A DNA stretch of 64,000 bases from Bacteroidaceae bacterium (GTDB taxonomy: Bacteria > Bacteroidota > Bacteroidia > Bacteroidales > Bacteroidaceae), in the NCBI GenBank assembly GCA_017520935.1, contig JAFXEF010000052.1:1-64000 (forward strand). Reading direction: 5' to 3'. Of this stretch, positions 11,958 to 39,010 are shown one piece after another. The position numbers and the translations under genes were made by a program. The notes under the pieces were generated by a model. The model searched no databases and was not told the origin of the DNA. It saw only the letters and a program-made list of their open reading frames with translations. Positions within the stretch are counted from its first letter, which is position 1, and each line of letters begins with the position of its first letter.

Positions 11958-12001
11958 CGAAGAAAATTTTGTTTCATCGCGAAGAAAATTTTGTTTTATC
12001 G
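11958..12001. repeat. 22-bp tandem repeat
   Basis: cgaagaaaattttgtttcatcg (11958-11979) is followed at once by a copy with one change (11980-12001), then by the start of a third degenerate unit (cgtagaaac). The unit contains the palindrome aaaatttt. Confidence 0.85.
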
Positions 12002-12132
12002 CGTAGAAACAAAAATCGCCTCCTCGGCGAGGGAAAAACCAGTGCCGTGAACTGTCCGTGCACAGACGGTGTCGGTCGGACGAGCGTTGGTGGATATGTG
12101 CGAAAGCTATATCTTCGCATATTTCCCCTCTC

Positions 12133-35988: not shown

Positions 35989-36420
35989 TTATTCTTCGAT
36001 ATCTACCAGTCGAAATGTCTTGCTGAAGGTGAGGGTAGTGCCATTGTCGAGCTCAATCTCATACATACGGCCGTTGTTCTCGTACTTGCTGATATAGTTC
36101 TTGGGGAAGTGCTTCTTCGTCGTCGTGAGAATTCTTTTTGGCATCACGGCATCGGGCACCGAACCGTTGTCGCAGGTGACCTCCGTGCATAGACCTGTGC
36201 GGTCAAACTGCAGGTCAATGCCTCCTTTGAGCTTCACCTCATATTGAGTGAGACTGGCACGGCGCTCCATGTACACCTCCTTGAGGGGGATGTTCTTGAA
36301 GTATGTGAGCACGAATATCTTTGCGTTTTGAGGAAGCTCTCCGAAAGTAATGGGCAGTTCTTCGGCGTGGAGGGCTATGAAACCAAGCAGTGCAATGAAC
36401 AGAGAAGCAAATCTTTTCAT
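35989..36420 (-). CDS. PepSY-like (DUF2874) periplasmic protein
   Basis: Signal peptide MKRFASLFIALLGFIALHA. The 143-residue protein has the two-fold beta-lactamase-inhibitor-like pattern of Bacteroidetes PepSY-like proteins: LPQNAKIFVLTYFKNIPLKEV and YEVKLKGGIDLQFDRTG, then RILTTTKKHFPKNYISKYE and YEIELDNGTTLTFSK. Role unknown. It ends head-to-head against the preceding fusion gene with no space between stops. Confidence 0.85.
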   Translation of the reverse strand: MKRFASLFIALLGFIALHAEELPITFGELPQNAKIFVLTYFKNIPLKEVYMERRASLTQYEVKLKGGIDLQFDRTGLCTEVTCDNGSVPDAVMPKRILTTTKKHFPKNYISKYENNGRMYEIELDNGTTLTFSKTFRLVDIEE

Positions 36421-36465
36421 GATGGTGTTTTTTTATTGGAAACAATCAAGTTCTGCATTTTGATA

Positions 36466-36473
36466 CAAATGTA
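36466..36473 (-). promoter_or_regulatory. -7 box of the PepSY-like gene
   Basis: Minus-strand TACATTTG, 45 bp upstream of the ATG at 36420. Confidence 0.55.
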
Positions 36474-36641
36474 GGTATAATTCGTAAAAGAAGAAACTGT
36501 AGCTCTGTTTTTTTAGGCTCGGAAGCAGGAAATTTAAGCTTTTGTGTAATCTATATTTCATATTTACAACTTACCGACATCTCTTATATGATGGTTCTTA
36601 TATCACTTGCTCCGATATCTATCCACTTCTTATATAAAAGT

Positions 36642-36725
36642 TAATCATAAGTTCTGATTAAGTAATCACAAGTTCTGATTACTTAATTATAAGTTGTGAT
36701 TAAGTAATCATAAGTTCTGATTTAA
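36642..36725. repeat. Four tandem 21-bp units with internal dyad (TAATCA-n7-TGATTA)
   Basis: Units start at 36642, 36663, 36684 and 36705: taatcataagttctgatta + ag, taatcacaagttctgatta + ct, taattataagttgtgatta + ag, taatcataagttctgattt + aa. Each is a near-palindrome, and 21 bp is two helical turns, so all dyads face the same side. Two copies of tttaatttt(tt)acatcatag follow (36721-36761). The array lies in the 490-bp gap between the divergent PepSY-like and recG genes; the remainder of the gap is AT-rich and includes three TCTTATAT words at 36582-36635. Confidence 0.88.
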
Positions 36726-36874
36726 TTTTACATCATAGCCGTTTAATTTTTTACATCATAGTTCTTGTGTCTTTATCCTCTCTGTCAGACAATAGTTTTC
36801 CCTTTTACAAGCAAAAATGTGGTCAGGTATAGACCAAAAGAAACTCACGCTCGTTGCAAAACGCACAAGTAAAC

Positions 36875-36905
36875 TTGGCTTTTTACTCGCTTATTCGTAC
36901 CTTTG
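36875..36905 (+). promoter_or_regulatory. Promoter of recG (near-leaderless)
   Basis: TTGG at 36875-36878 and TACCTTTG at 36898-36905, 20 bp apart. Only five bases separate the -7 box from the recG ATG at 36911. Confidence 0.65.
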
Positions 36906-36910
36906 CATCC

Positions 36911-39010
36911 ATGTACGACTTGACGACGCGCGACATACAGTATCTGCAAGGGGTTGGCCCCCAACGGGCAGCTTTGCTGACCAAGGAGCTGGGAGTAACT
37001 TCTATGCACGATCTGCTTTACAACTTCCCTTACAAGTATGTCGATCGCAGTCGCCTCTACTACATCCATGAGATTGACGGCAACATGCCCTATATACAGC
37101 TTAAGGGAAAGATCTTGCGCTATGAGACCAACGGTACGGGACGTAAGATGCGCCTTGTAGCCCACTTCTCGGATGGTACGGGGGTGATAGACCTTGTGTG
37201 GTTCAACGGTGCCAAGTTTATTCCCAAGAACTATCCTGTAGGCGTGGAGTATATCGTATTCGGCAAGCCCACGATGTTTGGTGACCGCATCAATGTGGCA
37301 CACCCTGATATAGATAAAGCTTCAGAGCTGTCGCTTTCTGCCATGGGCTTACAGCCTTATTACAGCACTACGGAGCGTATGAAACGCTGCGGACTCAACA
37401 GTAATGCCTTGCAGAAACTTGTGGGTAACCTCTTCGCCTTGTTTGAACGCATGCCTATCAGCGAGACCCTGCCCGAGTCGTTCGTGTGCGAACATCACCT
37501 TATGCCCCTTGCCGAGGCGCTCTATACCATCCACTTTCCCAAAGACCCCGAGACGTTACGCCGTGCCCAGTACCGACTCAAGTTCGAGGAACTCTTCTAC
37601 GTGCAGCTCAGTATCCTGCGCTATAGCAAGGATCGCCGTCGCAAGTGCCGTGGACTCTGCTTCGCCAAGGTGGGCGACTTGTTCAATGAGTTCTACGCCA
37701 AGAAGCTCCCCTTTGAACTCACGGGGGCGCAGAAACGTGTCATCCGTGAGATGCGCCACGACATGAATAGCGGCCGCCAAATGAATCGCCTCCTGCAGGG
37801 CGACGTGGGTAGCGGAAAGACACTCGTGGCGCTCATGTCCTCGCTCATAGCCATCGGTAACGGCTACCAAGCCTGTATCATGGCACCTACCGAGATATTG
37901 GCCGAGCAGCACTATGCTACCCTCTCCTCGATGCTCGAAGGACTTCCCGTGCGTGTAGCCTTGCTTACTGGCAGCGTGAAGGGAAAGAATCGCAAGGAGG
38001 TGCTTGAAGGACTTATTCGTGGCGACATCCAGCTGCTTGTAGCCACCCATGCTGTGCTCGAAGATACGGTTCAGTTCTCGTCACTCGGATTCGTTGTCAT
38101 CGATGAACAACACCGCTTCGGTGTAGCACAGCGTGCCAAACTGTGGACGAAGAACACCTTTCCACCACACGTGCTCGTAATGACAGCTACCCCCATCCCG
38201 CGTACCCTCGCCATGACACTCTACGGCGACCTCGACGTGAGTGTCATCGATGAGTTGCCTCCAGGTCGCAAGCCCATACAGACCATACACCAATATGATA
38301 ACCGGCAGACACAGCTCTATCGTTTCATGGGCGAACAGATTGCACAAGGGCATCAGGTATACGTGGTATATCCCCTCATCAAGGAGAGTGAGAAGATAGA
38401 CCTCAAGAACCTCGAGGAGGGCTATGTGCAGGTGTGCGAGGCTTTCCCGCATTGCGCCGTGAGCATGGTACACGGTAAGATGAAGCCTGCGGAGAAGGAT
38501 GCCGAGATGCAGCGCTTCCTACAGCGTGAAACGCAGATTATGGTAGCCACAACTGTGATTGAGGTAGGCGTGAACGTGCCCAACGCCTCGGTGATGGTTG
38601 TTGAGAATGCAGAGCGTTTTGGCCTCTCGCAACTGCATCAGCTCAGGGGAAGGGTGGGGCGTGGCGCAGACCAATCGTACTGCGTGCTTGTGACCTCTGT
38701 GAAACTTTCTGAGGAGAGCAAGAAACGACTTGACATCATGGTGCGCACCAACGATGGTTTCGAGATTGCCGAAGCCGACCTCAAACTGCGTGGGCCAGGT
38801 GATCTTGAAGGTACCCAGCAGAGTGGCATCGCCTTTGACCTCAAAATTGCCAATATCGCCCGCGATGGACAGATCTTGGGACACGTGCGTGGCATTGCCG
38901 AGCGTATCACCGATGAAGACCCCGATGGGGTGCGCCCTGAGAATGCCCTCATGTGGCAGCAGCTCGAACGCCTGCGTAAGACTAATGTGAACTGGAGTGC
39001 CATCTCGTGA
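36911..39010 (+). CDS. recG: ATP-dependent DNA helicase RecG
   Basis: Remodels stalled forks and branched DNA. N-terminal wedge/OB domain starts MYDLTTRDIQYLQGVGPQRA; helicase motifs: Walker A GDVGSGKT near 305, VATHAVLEDTV near 380, motif II DEQHRFG near 400, MTATPIPRTLAMT near 430, QLRGRVGRGADQSYC near 580. The 699-residue length is standard. ATG at 36911 is used; the open frame extends to 36854, but that part covers the promoter. Confidence 0.97.
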   Translation: MYDLTTRDIQYLQGVGPQRAALLTKELGVTSMHDLLYNFPYKYVDRSRLYYIHEIDGNMPYIQLKGKILRYETNGTGRKMRLVAHFSDGTGVIDLVWFNGAKFIPKNYPVGVEYIVFGKPTMFGDRINVAHPDIDKASELSLSAMGLQPYYSTTERMKRCGLNSNALQKLVGNLFALFERMPISETLPESFVCEHHLMPLAEALYTIHFPKDPETLRRAQYRLKFEELFYVQLSILRYSKDRRRKCRGLCFAKVGDLFNEFYAKKLPFELTGAQKRVIREMRHDMNSGRQMNRLLQGDVGSGKTLVALMSSLIAIGNGYQACIMAPTEILAEQHYATLSSMLEGLPVRVALLTGSVKGKNRKEVLEGLIRGDIQLLVATHAVLEDTVQFSSLGFVVIDEQHRFGVAQRAKLWTKNTFPPHVLVMTATPIPRTLAMTLYGDLDVSVIDELPPGRKPIQTIHQYDNRQTQLYRFMGEQIAQGHQVYVVYPLIKESEKIDLKNLEEGYVQVCEAFPHCAVSMVHGKMKPAEKDAEMQRFLQRETQIMVATTVIEVGVNVPNASVMVVENAERFGLSQLHQLRGRVGRGADQSYCVLVTSVKLSEESKKRLDIMVRTNDGFEIAEADLKLRGPGDLEGTQQSGIAFDLKIANIARDGQILGHVRGIAERITDEDPDGVRPENALMWQQLERLRKTNVNWSAIS

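Follow-up and report, generated by a model that had tools for sequence, protein, structure and literature searches.

The intergenic region upstream of recG holds a row of short palindromes, raising the question of what such an array is for and whether it belongs to recG at all. Within the window (the whole 64,000-nucleotide stretch of a Bacteroidaceae contig analyzed here), palindrome analysis delimited four 19-bp dyads with a 21-bp period at 36642-36723, listed on the plus strand: unit 1, TAATCATAAGTTCTGATTA (36642-36660); unit 2, TAATCACAAGTTCTGATTA (36663-36681); unit 3, TAATTATAAGTTGTGATTA, with TAATTA as one arm (36684-36702); and unit 4, TAATCATAAGTTCTGATTT, with T as outer base (36705-36723). 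Tandem Repeats Finder described the repeat as having a period of 21 and 3.9 copies. The four-unit palindrome score at period 21 was 30/36, compared with a top score of 23 at other periods (19-30) and of 25 among 60 block-Markov shuffled controls. The original prediction of four phased 21-bp palindromes, drawn at 36642-36725, was thereby borne out. It had also given each unit TAATCA and TGATTA arms around seven bases; this pattern was exact in two units and carried one mismatch in the other two, and the dyad proved to be longer, with an extended form TAATCAnAAsTTnTGATTA in which 7-8 of the 9 pairs matched in each unit. The units stand 2 bp apart, which leaves no room for the unique spacers that separate the repeats of a CRISPR.

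The array lies between a PepSY_like protein gene on the minus strand (35989-36420, PF11396) and recG on the plus strand (36911-39010, first ATG at 36911; PF17191, PF00270, and PF19833). Promoters of the Bacteroidetes type carry a -7 box with the consensus TAnnTTTG. Matches to this consensus were found for the PepSY-like gene (TACATTTG, 36466-36473, minus strand) and for recG (TACCTTTG, 36898-36905, plus strand), and these boxes are 169 bp to the left (from 36473) and 175 bp to the right (from 36898) of the array, in keeping with the predicted location between divergent promoters at about 150-170 bp from each. A sigma-70 promoter scan gave matches at chance level, and a terminator scan gave one weak terminator-like site. 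Elsewhere in the window, the repeat scan reported another short tandem repeat at 11958-12009 (period 22, 2.4 copies).

A position between two divergent promoters is consistent with a local operator of recG or of the PepSY-like gene, and the original prediction had placed the array between these two promoters. A search of the genome for the unit pattern, which the prediction had proposed as a check, points elsewhere. In the assembly to which the window belongs (2.89 Mb in 64 contigs, 87% complete), the pattern with up to two mismatches gave 38 forward matches and none in a reversed control. These matches made up ten arrays of what we call family A, eight with four units and two with two units, and single-unit relics were also present. 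None of the ten arrays lies within a gene: six are flanked by divergent genes and four by tandem genes, and each is located 5' of at least one gene, as an operator would be; however, the functions of the genes adjoining the ten copies are unrelated to each other, and family A was present in only 2 of 399 genomes of the family (this one and a congener). Moreover, no -7 box was found within 110 bp of the dispersed family-A arrays, unlike the arrays of the HU-related genes described below. We therefore regard a local operator as very unlikely, and a local role between the PepSY-like and recG promoters is not supported by the comparison.

The family-A copies have their unit order and flanking words in common, and so they descend from one another. 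The left flank of the window array (36623-36641, plus strand), which ends in TATAAAAGT, is common to other family-A copies, as seen in the match to a copy on contig C34 that extends over 36623-36760. The right flank (36724-36761, plus strand) is likewise common to other copies and contains two TTTTACATCATAG words (36726-36738 and 36749-36761) spaced 23 bp apart. The family-A array of the congener is at the same locus as the copy on contig C5, and in the matching record L131 this array is identical over 82 bases. At the recG loci of congeners, as far as these were read, the upstream sequences differed and no clean empty site was seen. Phage records contained no DNA similar to the window array, and the one stretch matched among viral contigs was not a four-unit array.

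Several family-A copies have surroundings of their own. In a one-unit form (L096, C26:30550-30594), both family-A flanks close on a single 21-bp palindrome, probably as a deletion product. A family-A array (L013:3989-4070) and a family-C array (L013:4257-4317; see below) share one intergenic region, less than 200 bp apart. Two family-A arrays have long secreted proteins as neighbors (L014:1-3872 and L015:4238-8001), which are paralogous and nearly identical in their signal peptides, and the copy on contig C10 adjoins a protein that carries a Por secretion tail (PF18962).

The architecture of the array is far more widespread than its sequence. When 84,980 species genomes were scanned for pairs of phased dyads matching WAWTCA-N7-TGAWTW, 61 stretches were returned, of which 45 have a Bacteroidales title. 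We kept 42 and set 19 aside by eye as other phyla, two-unit chance matches, or simple repeats; those set aside include L101, L123, and L155, whose titles name Bacteroidales. The 42 kept arrays mostly had four units, by a lax counter that overcounts at some array ends, and their centers differed widely (e.g., TAATCAGCAGTGCTGATTA, TAATCAACGACGTTGATTA, and AAATCAAAGCTTATGATTT). Phased-dyad arrays were carried by 7 of 19 genomes of the window's genus. Two arrays of another family, B, were observed in the window's own genome (L019:1998-2079 and L207:3021-3102), the second at a hisC-side locus with a RhuM-like gene (identified by eye) where two congeners also carry family B.

These comparisons also bear on whether the array is a neutral minisatellite grown by slippage, a reading that was already disfavored. 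The repeat is a direct tandem one of 21 bp, and the two-unit and one-unit forms in the same genome are what slippage could leave. Copy number, however, was kept: across seven orthologous loci (18 pairs), 17 pairs aligned through the array without a gap column and one pair had a single gap column, so that the highly variable copy number named in the original prediction as grounds for neutral slippage was absent at these loci. Array identity at these loci was 0.90-1.00, comparable to the flanks and not clearly higher. Furthermore, four units were the mode across unrelated arrays, and the dyads were kept across very different units, though the arrays had been chosen for palindromes. Neutral slippage is thus scarcely credible as an explanation.

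Clustering of the genes that neighbor the arrays revealed one recurring gene for an HU-like protein, found at a distance of 69-89 bp on the downstream side of arrays from three sequence families. By profile, this gene was present in 9 of the 42 kept array loci, and in six its start faced the array at 69-89 bp. The array-associated proteins match PF18291 (HU-HIG) and TIGR01201 (HU_rel); three array-neighboring proteins scored 44-68 bits and the protein of the window's own genome described below scored 54.9 bits against the HU-HIG cut-off of 26.2. We term them HU-wHTH proteins for their joined HU and winged-helix parts. HU-type proteins are textbook DNA binders with little sequence preference. 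Burroughs and colleagues reportedly surveyed the HU clades in 2017. A cognate DNA array for HU-HIG or HU_rel was not described in the literature that we found, nor did a search of the open-licence literature return any account in which HU-wHTH genes are paired with phased arrays of their own.

HU-wHTH genes were gathered with a nine-protein profile, and 132 of 201 genomes had one. After genes with shorter upstream sequences and duplicates were left out, the set comprised 123 distinct genes, each preceded by 300 bp of sequence or more, drawn from the best-scoring listed hits (with 80 extra regions added) and not from all hits. Three phased dyads scoring at least 20/27 at period 21 were observed upstream of 49 of the 123 genes; at each of the other periods from 12 to 40, between 0 and 3 genes reached this score, and downstream at period 21, none of 119 regions did. 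With the threshold lowered to 19/27, arrays were found for 60 of the 123 genes compared with 2 of 2,460 shuffles, a proportion of genes that may be high in that the profile was seeded mainly with array-neighboring genes. The remaining 63 lacked an array by this test, including 54%-identical paralogues in the window's genus. Later analyses use the 60 genes scoring at least 19. Their arrays had four units in 36 cases, three in 12, five in 11, and six in one, and unit identity was 65% within an array compared with 38% between the arrays of different HU-wHTH genes. In one Prevotellaceae genome, two arrays (L138 and L153), with five and six TAATCAAAG-type units, each stand beside an HU-wHTH gene.

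Pairing of a cognate gene with dispersed arrays of the same family was found for families B, C, and TAATCAnCAnTG. In congeners, family-B arrays are found alongside an HU-wHTH gene that has a family-B array of its own, and genome G156 has an HU-wHTH gene with a TAATCAnCAnTG array plus about 12 other arrays of that family. We define here an HU-wHTH binding-array superfamily by at least three dyads of about 19 bp at period 21, with a cognate HU-wHTH gene bearing a same-family array in the same genome, and by specific binding of that protein to the array. The window array has the first of these features. For family A (TAATCAnAAGTTnTGATTA), such a gene was not found; it is absent from the 87%-complete assembly, and among the 399 genomes the congener is the only other carrier of the array. 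The partner gene may lie in the missing 13%, may have been lost, or may be nonexistent. From these sequence comparisons, we consider it probable (roughly 60%) that the four dyads upstream of recG are a dispersed copy of the putative binding array of a Bacteroidales HU-wHTH protein. The part of the original prediction that took the array for a cooperative protein-binding site, and not random AT-rich DNA, is favored accordingly as a putative function, because of the 21-bp phase, the dyads kept despite changing sequence, and the same design 5' of HU-wHTH genes.

Such pairing was also seen in the window's own genome. Among eight HU-HIG matches in the assembly, one was a full-length HU-wHTH gene with a phased array (C44:71151), whose three TATTCCAAGACTTGGAATA-type units start 97 bp before the coding start (the same array as L211:2264-2324). 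This family C (TATTCCAAGWCTTGGAATA three times) occupies at least 34 loci including that of the gene itself, with close copies at at least 30 other loci (among them L335-L366, on G000 contigs), and is more abundant in this genome than family A. Comparison of the 31 of 34 loci with at least 50 of 61 bases identical to the reference revealed a core of about 82 bp with sharp limits (15 left, 61, and 6 right), beyond which the flanks were mostly unrelated. The order of the units was conserved between copies, and so the copies descend from one and are not convergent. The array at C44:71151 is the probable source of the family-C copies, which occur in either orientation and, at some loci, between convergent genes.

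A sharp core with unrelated flanks, descent of the copies from one, and the common flanks of family-A and family-B copies at unrelated loci are what would be expected of a selfish REP- or MITE-like repeat that some transposase copies, with the dyads as its ends or hairpins and with HU-wHTH genes that merely adjoin a copy. However, no transposase was found among the Pfam-scanned neighbors of family A (the scan covered 16 of the 20 nearest genes, 5 of which gave no match), and a selfish repeat would leave unexplained why, across many unrelated sequences, the arrays stand upstream and not downstream of HU-wHTH genes and keep in phase with promoters. We consider it rather unlikely that the arrays are such a repeat and nothing else.

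The phase with promoters was observed at the HU-wHTH genes themselves. A -7-type box lay between array and gene in 24 of the 60 array-bearing genes, and of 28 boxes within 110 bp after an array, 21 fell at 0-3 modulo 21, where about 5 were expected; the genes are related, and we claim no probability for this phasing. In 10 of the 60 genes, a box lay 14-17 bp before the array. At 20 dispersed arrays in other genomes, two -7 boxes were seen in all, and the family-C boxes at offset 1 are part of the flank that the repeat itself carries. Boxes in phase at HU-gene arrays and none at family A speak for regulation of the promoter of the HU gene itself and against that of recG. An HU-wHTH protein whose gene has a phased array thus likely controls the promoter of its own gene, as far as position relative to predicted boxes can tell.

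The position of these boxes is also relevant to a possible RNA element, in which the repeats would fold as hairpins of a transcript. Folded as RNA, the stretch reached -27.8 kcal/mol (z = -5.0), but palindromes fold by construction. A box between array and gene means that the array need not be co-transcribed, and family-C copies in both orientations and between convergent genes are difficult to reconcile with a transcript element. An Rfam scan of 36000-37500 returned three chance matches only, far under gathering scores. We consider an RNA element to have a slim likelihood.

An AlphaFold2 model of an HU-wHTH protein was poor overall (pLDDT 62, pTM 0.38), with a C-terminal winged helix modeled confidently (pLDDT 81-93), and a fold search on this model assigned a predicted HU fold to residues 26-126 and a predicted winged helix to residues 142-207. 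Across the 60 genes, the distance between arrays correlated with the distance between winged helices (rho = 0.32; reached in 0 of 2,000 permutations) and with the distance between HU parts (rho = 0.26); the partial correlations were 0.20 for the winged helix and 0.09 for the HU part. This weak correlation, uncorrected for kinship, fits a putative role of the winged helix in reading the array sequence.

Under the HU-wHTH reading, one protein dimer would occupy each 19-bp dyad, with the winged helix reading the family-specific bases and the HU part bending the DNA. The 21-bp spacing would place four dimers on one face of the helix, where they could bind together and wrap or loop the DNA. With the array beside and in phase with the promoter of its own gene, the protein would probably control itself. 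Copies of the array lie scattered as short interspersed repeats over intergenic sites, the region upstream of recG among them, and would be further docking sites produced by some copying process; there as elsewhere, they may act as extra binding sites with a role in nucleoid structure or in titration. In a more speculative extension, which we hold only tentatively, an HU-wHTH gene and its array of four 21-bp units would form a unit whose arrays multiply by themselves through the genome while the specificities of protein and array diversify together, with the recG array a satellite of one such unit. If so, each lineage would have many private, mutually independent chromosome-organizing or silencing circuits. 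A large Bacteroidales family that joins HU to a winged helix and has a private phased array would amount to HU proteins with an address. This would provide a readable target for a family without a known role, would explain a class of interspersed repeats, and would offer many independent protein-site pairs for the study of specificity change.

Among known systems, the closest parallel is that of REP/BIME repeats and RAYT genes, in which palindromic extragenic repeats occur in arrays, many per genome, with a cognate gene beside its own repeat, with gene-repeat co-variation and mosaic flanks, and with a tyrosine transposase as the gene product (PMC2817692). In both systems, a gene is paired with a repeat of its own and with dispersed copies of that repeat. 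In contrast to RAYT genes, the gene here encodes a DNA-binding HU-HIG protein with a winged helix and not a Y1 tyrosine transposase, and the arrays are direct 21-bp repeats, promoter-phased and on the promoter side only, whereas a REPtron has repeats on both sides of its gene (PMC2817692).

A parallel within the Bacteroidales is the BrickBuilt MITE of Porphyromonas gingivalis, which is described as an intergenic element in about 20 copies containing a 23-nt tandem repeat (1 to 22.8 copies), a leader and tail, and IS5-type terminal repeats (PMC4596501). Both are intergenic and set a short tandem repeat within a dispersed element, but relative to that description, the arrays here have dyads at a 21-bp period, usually four, and no paired terminal repeats were found for them (PMC4596501). 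When four published IS5-type terminal repeats were searched with up to two mismatches within 400 bp of 46 arrays, no left-right pair of one element type was found, and scattered hits occurred at 6 of the 46, in family B or C only. Of inverted repeats in the flanks, as a MITE would have, the best reached 10-12 of 14 at varying positions, and no empty site was found. P. gingivalis also has the HU protein PG0121 and a 77-bp inverted repeat at its capsule locus, a comparable combination of HU protein and structured repeat at a promoter region in the Bacteroidales (PMC3969353). That system differs in being a single locus with an E. coli-like HU and an inverted repeat in place of phased units (PMC3969353).

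Translation of the family-B left flank in three frames, in search of a concealed gene, showed a short open stretch ahead of the array. At two unrelated loci (L140 right of 2961 and L148 right of 1443), the family-B copies have more than 500 bp in common, including an apparently broken RhuM-like gene (identified by eye), and so longer units can be copied.
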